Below are positions 1,525-14,231 of a stretch of DNA of 28,573 nt, in pieces; position 1 is the first letter of the stretch, and the number at the start of each line of letters is the position of its first letter. The stretch spans positions 1 through 28,573 of the IMG/VR virus record IMGVR_UViG_3300006192_000026. The stretch is one strand, 5' to 3'. Source of the stretch: a virus. The notes beneath the pieces are model-generated. The model was not told where the DNA came from. It ran no database searches and saw only the letters and a program-made list of their open reading frames with translations. The position numbers were made by a program, and so were the translations under genes.

Positions 1525-1889
1525 GCGGCCTGCGCCTTTGCGCCACGGCTCGTGCGCAGCGAGACCGGCTGGTGCGCATGGGATATGCCCGTGGCGCGAC
1601 ACAGGCGGCGCTCGCTGCGCGCCTCGGGCTTTCTCCCAGCGGCATATCGCGCATTCTGGCCCGCCTTGATGCCCGACCGGATGCTGCCGAATTGCGCGTC
1701 CGGCGGCTGCGCGCGCCACGGCGCACTGGGCCCCGCCCGATCTGGCCTGACTGCCCACCGCATCTGGCCCGCGAATATCAGCGCATCCGCGCGATCATCG
1801 GATCGCGAGCCGCGCGAGACCAGCTGCTTTCGATTGAGGCGCGCGCCCGCGCTTCCGTTCCGTTTCCAACATCCGGGAGCCTGACATGA
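1521..1889 (+). CDS. Helix-turn-helix DNA-binding protein
   Basis: The start is GTG 1521, which overlaps the previous stop (GTGA), giving 122 residues. Residues about 25-50 form a clear helix-turn-helix: ATQAALAARLGLSPSGISRI, with the A-x-x-x-G turn and the S-x-S-x-x-S recognition helix of Cro/MerR/resolvase-type HTHs. The remainder is Arg/Pro-rich, with a C-terminal helix around REYQRIRAIIGSRAARDQL. It may regulate the early operon or serve in replication; the sequence does not say which. The stop overlaps the ATG of the ParB-like gene. Confidence 0.65.
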   Translation: MSGLRLCATARAQRDRLVRMGYARGATQAALAARLGLSPSGISRILARLDARPDAAELRVRRLRAPRRTGPRPIWPDCPPHLAREYQRIRAIIGSRAARDQLLSIEARARASVPFPTSGSLT

Positions 1890-3124
1890 GTCGACCCGCT
1901 ACCGATCGCATGAAGCACAATCCGCCCCTCGGCACACTCCCGGTGCTGCAATACGTGCTGCCCGCCCAGCTCACGATCGATGCGAGCTATCAGCGCACGC
2001 TCGACACAGCGGCAAGCCAGGCCCTGATACGCCAGATCGCCCAGCACTGGGATTGGGACCTGTGCCTCCCTCTTGTCGTCTCGCGCCGCGCCGACGGCAG
2101 CCTCTACGTGATCGACGGCCAGCACCGGCTGGCAGCGGCGAGGATACGCGGCGATATCGTGCAGTTGCCCGCCGTTGTCGGCAGCTATGCGTCGACAGCT
2201 GACGAAGCGGCGAACTTCGTGCACCTCAACCAGCAGCGCCGCCCGCTCGGCAAGCTCGACCTGTTCAAGGCGGCGGTGGCCAGCGGCGATACCGAGGCGA
2301 CCGAGATCGTCGCCGCGCTCGATGCCGCCGGTCTGTCCGTCGCGCCGCACATGAACCCGATCTCGTGGGCCCCGGGCGCGCTCGCCAACATCGGTGGCAT
2401 CCAGGCCAGCTGGCGGCGCCATGGGCCCGACGTCACCCGGCTGGCGCTCCGTGCGCTGCGCGAAGGCTTCGACGGCCAGGTCTTGCATTATGCCGGCAGC
2501 ATCTTCCCCGGGGTTGCCGCCGTCGTCTCGGCAGAAGCCAGGCAGTTCAGGCCCGCCTTCACCGACAAGTCGTGGGCCGCCCTGATCGCGATGATCCGCA
2601 GCAGGACGCAGGACGAATGGCGCAGCGCGATGTTGATGGCCCGCGCCCACGACCCGAACCTGACGTTCCCCAAAGCGAGCGAGAAGGTTCTGCTGGATGC
2701 GTGGGATGCCGATGCCGACACGCTGATCACGCCTGCGGCGTCTGCCCCGGCACCCGCTGCATCGACAGCCAAGCCCAGCGCACCGCCTCCCCCCGCCCCG
2801 CCGTCGACCGCGCGCACAGGCCGCCCAACAATCCCGACCGGGTTGTTCTCCAAGGGGAAGAACACCGTTGCGCCTGTTGCTACGCCGAAGGCGGCACCTG
2901 CGAAGCCCACGGGTGGTGCACCGAAGGCAGCACCGGCGAAGCCCGCGGCTGTCGCCCCCACGCAGTCAGTGTCCGGGACGGCTGGGGCCAGCAGCGGGCT
3001 TCGCCGGTTCATCCCCGGCGCTGACCAGAAGGCCTGGTGCAGCCAGTGCGACCGCCGTGTCGGCGCCGCCGAATTTTTCAACTGCAAGGATGCGTTCTGC
3101 TCCTTCAAGCGAGAGCCGCGCTGA
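1886..3124 (+). CDS. ParB/sulfiredoxin-fold protein with C-terminal Cys4 motif
   Basis: A 412-residue protein. Residues about 20-135 are a ParB-N-like nuclease/DNA-binding domain with the hallmark DGQHRLAAA (77-85) and a following FVHLNQQRRPLGKLDLF segment. Residues about 285-370 form a Pro/Ala/Lys linker with internally repeated APKAAPAKP units. The C-terminus carries Cys385, Cys388, Cys400 and Cys405 in a WCSQCDRRV...CKDAFC arrangement, a probable zinc-binding tail seen in alphaproteobacterial phage proteins. Phage ParB-like proteins of this type occur next to replication genes; the role (DNA binding, nuclease or CTP-dependent switch) is unproven here. It is coupled by overlaps to the genes on both sides (ATG 1886, TGA 3122-3124). 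Confidence 0.75.
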   Translation: MSRPATDRMKHNPPLGTLPVLQYVLPAQLTIDASYQRTLDTAASQALIRQIAQHWDWDLCLPLVVSRRADGSLYVIDGQHRLAAARIRGDIVQLPAVVGSYASTADEAANFVHLNQQRRPLGKLDLFKAAVASGDTEATEIVAALDAAGLSVAPHMNPISWAPGALANIGGIQASWRRHGPDVTRLALRALREGFDGQVLHYAGSIFPGVAAVVSAEARQFRPAFTDKSWAALIAMIRSRTQDEWRSAMLMARAHDPNLTFPKASEKVLLDAWDADADTLITPAASAPAPAASTAKPSAPPPPAPPSTARTGRPTIPTGLFSKGKNTVAPVATPKAAPAKPTGGAPKAAPAKPAAVAPTQSVSGTAGASSGLRRFIPGADQKAWCSQCDRRVGAAEFFNCKDAFCSFKREPR

Positions 3125-3300
3125 TGTTCCGGATCCTGCTGTTTGCCTACCTTGGCTTTGTCGTCATCCTCGATCTCGCCGCCTTCGCGCTCTACATCAA
3201 GATGGATCCCCCGCGCGGCGGCTGGCAGTATCTGGCCCGTGTGACCGACCTCACTGTGATCGCCTGCACAGTCGCGATTGCTGCGCAGGTGATCTCGTGA
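3124..3300 (+). CDS. Small two-helix membrane protein
   Basis: A 58-residue protein starting at ATG 3124, inside the upstream stop. Residues about 2-25 (ILLFAYLGFVVILDLAAFAL) and 40-57 (VTDLTVIACTVAIAAQVI) are hydrophobic and long enough to cross the inner membrane, joined by a polar loop DPPRGG. Small inner-membrane proteins in phage early regions are often exclusion or host-modifying proteins, but nothing specific supports a function here. Its TGA overlaps the GTG of the initiator gene. Confidence 0.6.
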   Translation: MFRILLFAYLGFVVILDLAAFALYIKMDPPRGGWQYLARVTDLTVIACTVAIAAQVIS

Positions 3301-4358
3301 GCAACCACGTCTCATCCGAGGTCACCAAGCGCCTGCTTGGCAGCGCGACGCGCAAGGCGCTTCTCGCGCTCATGGCCGACAAGGCCAGTGACTATGGCAC
3401 CGGCATCTGGGCGAGCAAGCAGACGATGGCCGACGAGCTCGAGGTCACCAAGCAGACGGTGATCACCACCATCAAGGGCCTGGTCAACGATGGCCTGCTG
3501 GTGGAGGTGGGCCATCGGCAGTGTGCGAATGGCTATCTGGTCGAATATGCCATCGATCTGGCCGCTGTGCGTGCGCTGCCTCTGGTCAAGGCGCATGCAA
3601 AGGACCGGTCAAAGGGTTTGACCGGTCAAACTGCTTTACCGGTCAAACTGGCTGACCCCACCGGTCAAACTGCTTTACCCCACCAGTCAAACTGTTTGAC
3701 CCAAACCATCCAAGAACCATCCTTGAACCATACCCCCCCTACCCCCCGCCGGGGGAGCGAGGGCGCGTCGGCTCGAATTCCTGAGGACTGGAAGCTGCCA
3801 GCCATCACCGACCTGCCTGCCTCAATCGCTGCGCTGGCCCGCCAGTGGCCGGCTGGTGCCTACGAGGCCGAGGGCGAGGCATTCCACCAACATTGGCTGG
3901 GGCGTGGTCACCGGCGGGCTGACTGGTCCGCGCTGTGGGCGTCGCGGGTTCAGGCCCGGCATGACGCCGTGATGCGGTCGGCCAAGGCTGGCGTGGCCTA
4001 TGCGGCGGCTGGAAGCGTTGCCAGCCAGGCCGCGCCGCCGGTGGAGCGAGCCCCGGTCACCGCCAAGCGCCGCGAGGATGCGCGCTCGGCAGAGTTGCAC
4101 GATGCGCTGGCCGAGCAGCTGGGGCAGCGCCTGTGGGAGCAATGGTTTGCCCCGGCGGCCCTGATCTTCGACGAAAGCGGCGGCCTGGTCGTGGTGGCCC
4201 CGACCGCTTTCAGCCGCACCCAACTCGAAACCGCGCATGCCGCATCCATCGAGGCTGCGCTCGCCACGCTCGGGCGGGGCGTCGACTGGATCCGGTTCAT
4301 CGCAGACAGCGCCGCAACACCGGCAAAAGGAAAGAAGGGGGGCTCGCAGCGTGGTTGA
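3297..4358 (+). CDS. Phage replication initiator (HTH, DnaT-like, DnaA-domain-I-like)
   Basis: The start is GTG 3297, overlapping the preceding TGA, giving 353 residues. Residues about 12-75 are a winged HTH (KQTMADELEVTKQTVITTIK) like lambda O or HTH_36 initiators. Residues about 105-150 are a low-complexity linker encoded by the iteron array. Residues about 185-220 (EGEAFHQHWLGRG...ADWSALW) resemble the DnaT primosome segment. Residues about 265-333 match DnaA domain I (LGQRLWEQWFAPAALI, then GLVVVAPTAFSRTQLE), the region that recruits DnaB helicase in DnaA. The expected role is to bind the origin inside its own gene and load the host helicase. The domain calls are from pattern recognition and the origin is inferred. 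The GTG of the NusG-like gene overlaps its end. Confidence 0.8.
   Translation: MSNHVSSEVTKRLLGSATRKALLALMADKASDYGTGIWASKQTMADELEVTKQTVITTIKGLVNDGLLVEVGHRQCANGYLVEYAIDLAAVRALPLVKAHAKDRSKGLTGQTALPVKLADPTGQTALPHQSNCLTQTIQEPSLNHTPPTPRRGSEGASARIPEDWKLPAITDLPASIAALARQWPAGAYEAEGEAFHQHWLGRGHRRADWSALWASRVQARHDAVMRSAKAGVAYAAAGSVASQAAPPVERAPVTAKRREDARSAELHDALAEQLGQRLWEQWFAPAALIFDESGGLVVVAPTAFSRTQLETAHAASIEAALATLGRGVDWIRFIADSAATPAKGKKGGSQRG
3604..3701 (+). repeat. Iteron array, candidate replication origin
   Basis: Five direct copies of a 13-base unit ACCGGTCAAACTG begin at 3604, 3621, 3638, 3660 and 3682, so the start-to-start spacing is 17, 17, 22, 22. Copies 2-4 are perfect, copy 1 differs at two positions and copy 5 at one (ACCAG). 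Inverted halves GTTTGACC occur at 3616 and 3694, making a perfect 16-base palindrome at 3616-3631. The array lies inside the initiator gene between its HTH and DnaT-like regions, the same place as the lambda origin within gene O. The origin call is inference from that architecture. Confidence 0.75.
3704..3731 (+). repeat. Three 11-base-phased AACCAT repeats next to the iterons
   Basis: AACCAT occurs at 3704, 3715 and 3726, exactly 11 bases apart, in the least GC-rich stretch just after the iterons. Helical phasing beside an iteron array suggests a secondary protein-binding or unwinding element of the origin. That role is inference; the repeats themselves are visible. Confidence 0.45.
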
Positions 4359-4917
4359 GGCCGGACAAAACGATTGGTGCATCCTGCGGACGCAATCTGC
4401 CAACACGCTCGGCCTTGCCGCTGCCCTTACCGATAGCGGCTGGCGTGCATGGACCCCGACCGAGGTGATCACACGCCACCATGGACGGCGGCCCATCGTT
4501 CGGCAGGAGATTACTGTCCCGCTGATGCCGTGCCTGGTCTTTGTCGGCTGGACGCACCTGGAGGAAATGATCGCGCTCGCCCGGTCCACCATGTCCTATC
4601 GCACTTGGGATCCGGCAGCGAAGCGCATGGTCGTCCGCGGCTATCCACACTTCCGGGTGCTGCAAGTCGGGGATCGCTATGCCCGTGTGACTGATTCCTC
4701 GCTCACTGGCGTGCGGCTGGCCGAGAGCACCCGCGCCGTGAAGGTCAAGCAGCTGACGCTCAAACCGGGTGCGCAGGTCCGGATGATCGGCGGCTTGCTC
4801 GACGGGCTGCTGGGCAAGGTGGAAACCATCAGCGGCAGGTTTGCCCAGGTGCGCTTTCCCGGCTGGCATATGCCGCTGGCGACCGCTGTGCATCTGATCG
4901 AAGAGGTGAAATCGTGA
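4351..4917 (+). CDS. NusG-like transcription elongation/antitermination protein
   Basis: With GTG 4351 as start (overlapping the initiator's TGA) the product is 188 residues, close to the length of bacterial NusG. Residues about 7-100 follow the NGN pattern: NDWCILRTQS, then GWRAWTPTE and VPLMPCLVFVGW, which align with the RNA-polymerase-binding domain. Residues about 137-170 are a KOW motif (LKPGAQVRMIGGLLDGLLGK). NusG paralogues such as RfaH and LoaP modify RNA polymerase to read through terminators. Placed directly before the virion genes, this one is a good candidate for the late-gene antiterminator; that job is inferred. The GTG of the next gene overlaps its stop. Confidence 0.8.
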   Translation: MVEAGQNDWCILRTQSANTLGLAAALTDSGWRAWTPTEVITRHHGRRPIVRQEITVPLMPCLVFVGWTHLEEMIALARSTMSYRTWDPAAKRMVVRGYPHFRVLQVGDRYARVTDSSLTGVRLAESTRAVKVKQLTLKPGAQVRMIGGLLDGLLGKVETISGRFAQVRFPGWHMPLATAVHLIEEVKS

Positions 4918-5341: not shown

Positions 5342-5479
5342 ACTTGCTGCATATCAACGCAGGTTTGAGCTTAGCTTCTCCTCAAATCCATCCAATATGG
5401 CGGAAATACCTCAGTTTTAACCTGCGATTGATAGATGGTGAGATAACCTGTTCAGGTTCATTTGCGCCTAGGGGGATTC
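5187..5479. promoter_or_regulatory. Intergenic region with AACCTG/CAGGTT inverted repeats
   Basis: This spacer has no + strand gene. Its first part holds the antisense fragment. From about 5340 it is AT-richer and carries the hexamer AACCTG or its complement four times: CAGGTT at 5360, AACCTG at 5419 and 5445, CAGGTT at 5453. The last two form a palindrome with a 2-base centre (5445-5458) about 20 bases before the next start codon, a typical operator position. No convincing -35/-10 pair was found. The regulatory reading is inference. Confidence 0.35.
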
Positions 5480-6595
5480 GTGCCTTTCTACTTTCGTAAG
5501 TCGGTCAATGCCGGACCTTTCCGCTTTAATTTCTCCAAGAGTGGAGTCGGCATCTCGGTCGGCGTAAAGGGGCTTCGTGTCGGAACTGGGCCAAGAGGGC
5601 ATTATGTGCAGGCCGGTCGAGGTGGCTTTCATTACCGCGCATCGCTGGGTGGGGAGCGGACCAGGCGGCAGCCATCTTTCGCGGCTAGCGGACGCCCGCC
5701 AATAGCGCCTCCGCAGCACGCGGTAGACGACATGATCGCGGTGACATCTAGTAACGTGCTGGAGATGCAAGATTCGGCTTTCGCCGATGTGCTCGCGGAC
5801 CTCAATCAGAAGCATAAGCAAATGCAGATGAGCATGACTCTGCTGATTGCGAGCACTGCGCTGGCTGTTCTGGTTTTGGCGAGCATCGGCTCGGGCGCTA
5901 TCGGCATTTTCCTTTTGGTGCCGATCGCTTGGGCCATCGGCGCATGGCTTGACTCGTTCAAGCGCGTCGCAGTGCTGTTTTATGATGTTGAGGACGATAC
6001 CCAGCAGCGGTTCGCCGCGATCTGCGCAGCCTTTGATGAGCTGGCAAATTGTGAGGGAAAATGGCATATCGAGGCGGGAAAAGCCGTCCATGACCTGACG
6101 ACGTGGAAACAGCAGGCCGGAGCCTCGCATCTCGTCAGACGTAACGCTACGACCCTCGACTACCGGTTACCGCAGGTTCTGCGATGCAATGTAACGCCGC
6201 CAGCCTTTCAGGTTGGCAAGCGAACGATCTACCTCTTGCCCGATGTCGCTTTGATTCACGATGCCAGCGGGTTCGGAGCGGTCAGCTACCACGCCTTGCA
6301 GGTGAACTGGCAGCCATCAAACTTCATCGAAACAGATCAGGTTCCGCGTGACGCAGAAATCGGCAGCTATACGTGGGAGCATCCCAACAAGTCAGGCGGG
6401 CCGGATCGGAGATTCAAGAGCAACAAACGCCTTCCGGTTTGCCGCTACGAGGCGATGCATCTTGCCAGTGCCAGCGGCATGAATGAGCTTCTCGAATTTT
6501 CACGGCGCGGCTTCGTGCAGCCGCTGGTAGCTGCTTTCCAGGCTATGCCCGCAAATAGCGAGATCGACGCGATCCGTGCGCTACCGAAGCGCTGA
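5480..6595 (+). CDS. DUF4236 membrane protein (moron-like)
   Basis: I chose GTG 5480 rather than the in-frame TTG at 5462, because AGGGGG (5470-5475) lies just before it and the product then starts PFYFRKSVNAGPFRFNFSKSG, as DUF4236 proteins normally do. The product is 371 residues. Residues 1 to about 55 are the DUF4236 domain. Residues about 115-165 hold two adjacent hydrophobic segments (LLIASTALAVLVLASI and GIFLLVPIAWAIGAWL). The remaining 200 residues are soluble and unrecognised. DUF4236 occurs in scattered bacterial and phage proteins of unknown function. Lower GC than the neighbours, its own leader and its position between early and late genes fit a moron carried for the benefit of the lysogen or against other phages. 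Confidence 0.7.
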   Translation: MPFYFRKSVNAGPFRFNFSKSGVGISVGVKGLRVGTGPRGHYVQAGRGGFHYRASLGGERTRRQPSFAASGRPPIAPPQHAVDDMIAVTSSNVLEMQDSAFADVLADLNQKHKQMQMSMTLLIASTALAVLVLASIGSGAIGIFLLVPIAWAIGAWLDSFKRVAVLFYDVEDDTQQRFAAICAAFDELANCEGKWHIEAGKAVHDLTTWKQQAGASHLVRRNATTLDYRLPQVLRCNVTPPAFQVGKRTIYLLPDVALIHDASGFGAVSYHALQVNWQPSNFIETDQVPRDAEIGSYTWEHPNKSGGPDRRFKSNKRLPVCRYEAMHLASASGMNELLEFSRRGFVQPLVAAFQAMPANSEIDAIRALPKR

Positions 6596-13496: not shown

Positions 13497-14231
13497 ATGA
13501 ATATTGGCCGCCTCTCGGCCGGTACGAGCCGCTTTGCGCACCTCACCGGCCTTTCCCGCCGTTCTCGTCTCGCCGAGGACGATAACCAGGACGACAATGA
13601 CGAACCCAATGGCAAGAAGTCCCGTGCTGCCGATGATGACGACGGCGACGAGGATGAGCCGAAGGGCAAGAAGTCCCGCCGTGCCACCGACGATGACGAC
13701 GGCGACGAAGACGAGCCGAAGGGCAAGAAGTCGCGTGCCGCCGATGATGACGATGGCGACGAGGATGAGCCGAAGGGCAAGAAGTCGCGCCGTGCCACCG
13801 ACGATGGCGACGGTGATGAAGACGAGCCGAAGGGCAAGAAGTCGCGCCGTGCCGCGGACGACGAAGAAGGCGATGATGACAAGGAAGAAATGAGCGGCCG
13901 AAGCGCGCGGGCATCTGCCCGGATGCGCGAACAGGCGCGGATCGCAGCAATCCTGGGTCATCCGTCGGCCGCACACAACCTGCCTTTGGCCGTCAGTCTC
14001 GCCTGTGAAACGCGCATGACACGGCGTGAAGCCATTGCCGTGATGCGCGGTCAGGCGGCCAACGTCCGCGATGACGGTGACGACGACTATGTCCCTCGCA
14101 ATCGTCATGCGCGCGAGGACCGCGCATCGCGCAATCCGCGCATTGGCAGCGAACAACAGATCAGCGGAAAGCAGGCTGTCAGCGCGAGCTGGGACCATGC
14201 TTTCCAGAAGGCGGGCATCAAAACCCGCTGA
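13497..14231 (+). CDS. Probable scaffold protein with acidic/basic tandem repeats
   Basis: A 244-residue protein with AGGAGA just before its ATG. Residues about 36-128 are five tandem units of the type DDDDGDEDEPKGKKSR, alternating 18 and 19 residues, so highly acidic and basic patches alternate. Residues 143-190 (MREQARIAAILGHPSAA...LACETRMTRREAIAVM) match the helical tail found fused to the C-terminus of many phage S49 head proteases, which acts as internal scaffold. The remainder is Arg/Asp-rich, ending in SWDHAFQKAGIKTR. The position between protease and decoration/capsid supports a scaffold like lambda Nu3. It is unusual in being a separate gene with this repeat block. Confidence 0.7.
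   Translation: MNIGRLSAGTSRFAHLTGLSRRSRLAEDDNQDDNDEPNGKKSRAADDDDGDEDEPKGKKSRRATDDDDGDEDEPKGKKSRAADDDDGDEDEPKGKKSRRATDDGDGDEDEPKGKKSRRAADDEEGDDDKEEMSGRSARASARMREQARIAAILGHPSAAHNLPLAVSLACETRMTRREAIAVMRGQAANVRDDGDDDYVPRNRHAREDRASRNPRIGSEQQISGKQAVSASWDHAFQKAGIKTR
13602..13890 (+). repeat. In-frame tandem repeat (54/57-base units) in the scaffold gene
   Basis: Five near-identical units encode the alternating 18- and 19-residue repeats. Pairs of units form a 111-base higher-order period. DNA identity between units is high, including at third codon positions, which points to recent duplication and to likely copy-number variation by recombination or slippage. Confidence 0.8.

Follow-up and report, generated by a model that had tools for sequence, protein, structure and literature searches.

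Origins within initiator genes of known phages

In bacteriophage lambda, dimers of the O protein bind iterons, each of them a dyad unit (PMC5043065), and an adjacent AT-rich tract opens (PMC7466680); in vitro, only the two iterons next to this tract are needed (PMC7466680). In the lambda sequence (J02459) the O iterons are spaced by 20, 24 and 23 bp inside gene O. Gene 18 of phages P22 and L carries its own repeats inside the coding sequence, and the point that O-gene origins have phage-specific iterons was made for lambda, P22 and L together (PMC8022706); the P22 and L origins were assigned there from sequence and genetic exchange, with no appeal to a shared plan (PMC8022706). That O genes can contain origins with phage-specific iterons is, therefore, already published (PMC7466680; PMC8022706). 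How iteron-bound initiators choose the opening site and strand has been called an open question (review PMC5043065).

The initiator gene and its neighbors

We analyzed a virus record of 28,573 bp (IMG/VR IMGVR_UViG_3300006192_000026), referred to below as the window. Its stretch from 3604 to about 3755 is, with high probability, a phage replication origin situated inside its own initiator gene and acting through an array/unwinding mechanism. The features of this gene are as follows.

3297..4358, plus strand: O-like replication initiator gene, GTG start (PHROG, Pfam, AlphaFold2)
About residues 1-92 of the initiator: winged HTH, confident in the AlphaFold2 model
Residues 107-155: disordered linker (AlphaFold2 model)
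Residues 175-230: helical segment (AlphaFold2 model)
Residues 256-336: DnaA domain-I-like C-terminus, alpha/beta (AlphaFold2 and Pfam)
3607..3623, plus strand: dyad 1, GGTCAAAGGGTTTGACC
3616-3631, unstranded: perfect 16-bp palindrome, GTTTGACCGGTCAAAC, unique in the window
3624..3640, plus strand: dyad 2, GGTCAAACTGCTTTACC, 17 bp after dyad 1
3641..3657, plus strand: dyad 3, GGTCAAACTGGCTGACC, 17 bp after dyad 2
3663..3679, plus strand: dyad 4, GGTCAAACTGCTTTACC, 22 bp after dyad 3
3685..3701, plus strand: dyad 5, AGTCAAACTGTTTGACC, 22 bp after dyad 4
3704..3729, plus strand: second element, direct repeats of AACCATCC at 11 bp, in three codon phases
3742..3755, unstranded: weak optional inverted repeat, CCCCC-cgcc-GGGGG

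The N-terminus of the initiator matches phage replication initiation and O-like PHROG families (phrog_391, phrog_1032, phrog_8540 and others, E 1e-7 to 1e-10), an assignment that shows no direct homology to lambda O. The Pfam scan gave DnaA_N (C-terminus; 25.2 bits, cut-off 24.6) and HTH_36 only, with no plasmid Rep family; weak MarR/Crp-like matches also came from the domain search. The AlphaFold2 model had a mean pLDDT of 80.8. In Foldseek searches the N-terminus matched winged-helix regulators, DnaD and plasmid initiators, all with weak E-values; the nearest match of the C-terminal domain, also weak, was the DnaA domain I complex 4tps (E 4e-3). Structural matches among viral proteins include putative replication proteins; no solved structure matching the initiator by sequence was found.

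Directly downstream (4354-4917), where a P-like helicase-loader gene was looked for and not found, there is instead a NusG/RfaH/UpxY-like transcription antiterminator gene; the DnaA_N-like domain of the initiator may stand in for the P-like loader. Relatives of the NusG-like gene were detected beside the initiator at four other loci (L008, L021, L030, L032). Upstream, at 1886-3124, the window encodes a ParB-like/DUF6551 protein whose long linker is rich in Ala and Pro and whose C-terminus is rich in cysteine.

Repeat array and second element

The array at 3604-3701 consists of five 20-nt copies with 80-100% identity to the reference copy. The dyads start at 3607, 3624, 3641, 3663 and 3685, thus the five copies and the 17, 17, 22 and 22 spacing given by the first-pass annotation were confirmed by position; its 13-base repeat unit, on the other hand, describes the array less well than a 17-bp imperfect dyad with the core GGTCAA-N5-TTGACC. 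The perfect 16-base palindrome that it had pointed out was found as well, and is a mere junction where dyads 1 and 2 abut; a separate meaning for it was dropped. The array was correctly placed between the HTH and the C-terminal domains, while the label 'DnaT-like' for the middle helical segment has proved weak. Copies of the dyad are confined to the array: GGTCAAANNGTTTGACC at ≤3 mismatches has 10 strand-matches in the 28,573-bp window, every one inside the array, with 0.38 expected, and none of 100 shuffled sequences gave 10 matches. The array and the sequence immediately to its right encode the disordered linker.

Adjoining the array, and missed in the first reading, are copies of AACCATCC at 3704 and 3715 with a partial one at 3726; the first AACC follows the center of dyad 5 at a distance of 11 bp. 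Among relatives this second element has the consensus AACCnYCC and recurs every 10-12 bp. Within the window's initiator gene, the 40-mers of lowest stability start at 3685-3694; a local stability minimum adjoins the last dyad, and at about 52% GC it is not AT-rich. Averaged over relatives, stability within the gene is lowest in the 40 bp that begin at the first AACC, where GC content is 0.10 below the gene's value and the strands are strongly asymmetric (skew −0.52). A DnaA-box origin was rejected: an exact DnaA box does not occur in the window, and TTWTNCACA at 0-1 mismatch is absent near the array, the nearest occurrence being at 4641 (one mismatch).

After the AACC repeats, counterparts of the weak inverted repeat, stronger than in the window, are present in about a third of relatives. 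As a universal third element a hairpin was rejected: stems of at least 6 occurred in no more than 13 of 40 relatives, against about 5% in controls, and the one in the window is weak. Several relatives have perfect stem-loops with TNAC loops shortly to the right of AACC, e.g. GAAGAAGC-tgac-GCTTCTTC (L012 890-960; linkers of L018 and L002).

Comparison with described origins

As in lambda, the dyads of the window are situated in the initiator gene, between the parts encoding the DNA-binding and the C-terminal domains, the left spacing is shorter than the right, and the last iteron is followed on its right by a stretch that probably opens easily; the steps of 22-23 bp, which are conserved, adjoin AACC, just as the required lambda iterons adjoin the AT-rich tract. 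Lambda differs in its AT-rich tract, its dyad letters and the lack of AACCnYCC repeats in O (a search for AACCnYCC in a Sulfitobacter plasmid gene was negative as well), and the window differs from lambda in its DnaA_N-like C-terminus and in having no adjacent P-like loader gene. Gene 18 of P22 and L likewise encodes distant O-like proteins with in-gene repeats of their own; however, the letters and numbers of the repeats are different. Iteron plasmid origins share with the window initiator sites repeated at about 17-22 bp and an adjoining unwinding region, both putative in the window; in the window, unlike in these plasmids, the array is inside the gene, the units are dyads as in lambda, and no DnaA boxes flank the array. 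We think that the window origin would work like the lambda origin, as that of an O-like relative, without being a lambda-type module in every part.

A plan shared by divergent relatives

A close relative of the initiator is encoded in a Novosphingobium rosa prophage (52% identity in protein search); the N. rosa NBRC 15208 prophage (L001/L005) shares this putative origin. The search of viral contigs with the N-terminal alignment gave 109 loci, of which 80 were kept (61 distinct). A pattern made of DNA only, the last dyad plus CCCAAACC, found nine loci; eight of the nine were inside O-like genes, at the same position. About half of the matches to AACCATCC-N3/4-AACCATCC in viral contigs fell outside O-like genes; these resemble chance background. 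In 79 of 81 distinct O-like genes AACCnYCC was present and its first AACC was followed by another at 9-13 nt, 50 of the 79 having been found by protein alone; loci found with AACCATCC are circular for AACC conservation. Since finding some relatives by the AACC or dyad pattern makes conservation figures circular, protein-found sets were counted separately. The first-pass annotation had named relatives without any array as a finding that would speak against it, which is not what was seen: the protein search by itself gave 52 distinct relatives, in 50 of which the AACC repeat has an adjacent dyad array, and the two without the standard repeat, L090 and L037, have degenerate versions of it.

Leftward of the first AACC, self-complementarity is highest at a distance of exactly 11 bp (4.67 of 7 pairs, the next best position having about 3; 4.88 of 7 in the protein-found set). 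Of 75 scored relatives, 70 have a last dyad step of 22-24 bp, independently of the dyad letters, and 17 bp is the commonest of the steps further left; the earlier suggestion that the switch from 17 to 22 bp may be meaningful has thereby gained strength. Seven of the further relatives (<90% identical to earlier ones) were assessable: five have a dyad at 11 bp, one fits if a degenerate first repeat is allowed (read by eye) and one has a degenerate element. The common plan is, therefore, a spacing of 17 bp for the left dyads and of 22-23 bp for the right ones, with the last dyad centered 11 bp from AACCnYCC. The C-terminal regions of the relatives differ (DnaA_N in the window and in L002, a sub-threshold DnaT in L041, no recognized domain in the others examined); the region has been exchanged while the origin plan was kept.

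The letters of the dyads change with lineage: half-sites are GTCAA in sphingomonad-type phages, and TGAA, TGCA, GTGCA, GTGAA, GTCCC and others elsewhere. Half-site distance correlated with recognition-helix distance (r 0.51; 38 clusters, permutation p 2e-4), also when the rest of the domain was taken into account (r 0.39). All 40 relatives with Arg at the position of residue 53 of the window's initiator have GTG half-sites (G at the fourth base, both arms), all 20 with Gln have GTC or GTA (C or A at the fourth base), and one relative with Thr also has GG; the window's initiator combines Gln53 with GTC half-sites. On the tree these counts go back to no more than about three independent changes and are no independent statistical proof. 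The pattern suggests that Arg or Gln at residue 53 sets the half-site base, and this apparent rule would make initiator specificity testable by simple swaps.

AACCnYCC is nearly constant across the relatives while the dyad letters change. In an Arthrobacter phage AACCGTCC occurs in three copies at 11-bp steps, each in a different frame, and then once more; the element is also present in a Paracoccus element, and forms of the AACCATCA type are found in phages of Microcystis and Bifidobacterium. In gammaproteobacterial O-like genes (L227-L306) the variant is GAACCAGTCAnT, with the same frame in 57 of 61 genes and another frame in four; these genes have several unrelated dyad types beside the one common GAACCAGTCAnT.

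In a limited search of open-licence papers we found no description of the shared spacing plan or of the AACC element, so the novelty of this part is provisional; a search with the letters of AACCATCC returned only primers and unrelated sequences, and papers on origins inside phage initiator genes (lambda, Stx phages, P22, L) did not describe the shared plan. The sequence rule should allow origins to be located in many uncharacterized phages and prophages straight from the initiator gene.

Proposed mechanism

Dimers of the N-terminal winged HTH would bind the five dyads, as covariation and family membership suggest. The left dyads (17 bp) and right dyads (22 bp) would then be assembled into an ordered nucleoprotein array, the strain of which could open the AACCATCC repeats, which are strand-asymmetric and lie one helical turn away on the right, given their local stability and fixed position. 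Judging by its domain type and by DnaA biology, the DnaA domain-I-like C-terminal module may recruit the host DnaB helicase.

The case for an origin combines an O-like family and domain layout with an array that occurs nowhere else in the window and is constrained as DNA; the first-pass annotation's reading as a lambda-type 'origin inside O' is well supported by the family matches and by the coincidence of the array with the disordered linker. The AACC region is a local stability minimum with GC skew of −0.52. Conservation of the array, the spacing switch and the AACC element across divergent relatives points the same way, as does the correlation of dyad letters with the recognition helix, and the comparably spaced lambda iterons inside gene O and the repeats of P22 and L gene 18 offer a supporting analogy. 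Against an origin one could count that the second element, at about 52% GC, is not AT-rich in the lambda sense, that the next gene encodes a NusG-like antiterminator rather than a P-like loader, that the Arg/Gln rule derives from about three independent changes, and that the GC skew of the window, with a sign change near 4 kb, is noisy elsewhere.

Alternative explanations

The array sits in a disordered, low-constraint linker, and some marine relatives have in-frame 12-nt repeats; one could thus suppose that the repeats reflect a repeating protein linker and that the DNA itself has no function. However, the 17, 22 and 11 bp steps shift the copies between frames (codon phases of the dyad starts from 3607 to 3685 are 1, 0, 2, 0 and 1), therefore it is DNA and not protein that is conserved. 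When codons were redrawn in 2000 trials with the protein kept the same, similar 17-mer pairs reached a maximum of 25 (109 observed) and dyad centers a maximum of 7 (9 observed); the array was reproduced in none of the 2000 recodings and is, therefore, constrained as DNA. For the window, the reading frames and this synonymous null refute a protein-repeat explanation, whose probability we regard as negligible. The ParB-like gene just upstream could suggest that the array is a centromere (parS) for its product; yet no relative of this gene was detected beside any of 80 other array-bearing O-like genes (56 loci of >4.5 kb), and the dyad letters follow the initiator's HTH, so a ParB centromere was rejected as very improbable. 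Dyads close to the gene of a winged-HTH protein with weak MarR/Crp-like matches could also be operators at which this protein represses transcription within its own gene, with no role in replication. Four to five tightly spaced mid-gene copies with a fixed second element, the match to replication families and the DnaA_N domain make this unlikely; moreover, such arrays serve as origins in published O-like genes (PMC7466680; PMC8022706).

What the second element does is a finer question. We have moderate confidence that phages of very different hosts share a two-part origin code, in which lineage-specific dyads, spaced by 17 and then by 22-23 bp, would be read by the recognition helix, and the nearly universal AACCnYCC repeat, one helical turn away and independent of the dyad letters, would specify strand opening or helicase entry. 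AACCnYCC is thus a candidate for how iteron-bound initiators choose the opening place and strand. With the origin taken as right, one may tentatively propose that AACCnYCC is a site for a host factor, or for helicase or primase entry, and not just a stretch that opens easily: its letters hardly vary against changing dyad letters, it is strongly strand-asymmetric, and the consistent GAACCAGTCAnT beside several dyads in gammaproteobacterial relatives is what a clade-specific factor would give. On the other side, the element is the stability minimum, where lambda has its AT-rich tract, and the window is devoid of exact DnaA boxes. To our knowledge, AACCnYCC matches no recognized host site.

Other observations in the window

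An ORF at 5462-6595, between the replication and head genes, has an N-terminal motif FRFNFSKSGVGISVGVKGLRVGTGPRG and hydrophobic stretches. At 13600-13850, the translated ORF that comes after a protease-like gene contains a repeated acidic/basic stretch made of DDDDGDEDEPKGKKSR units.
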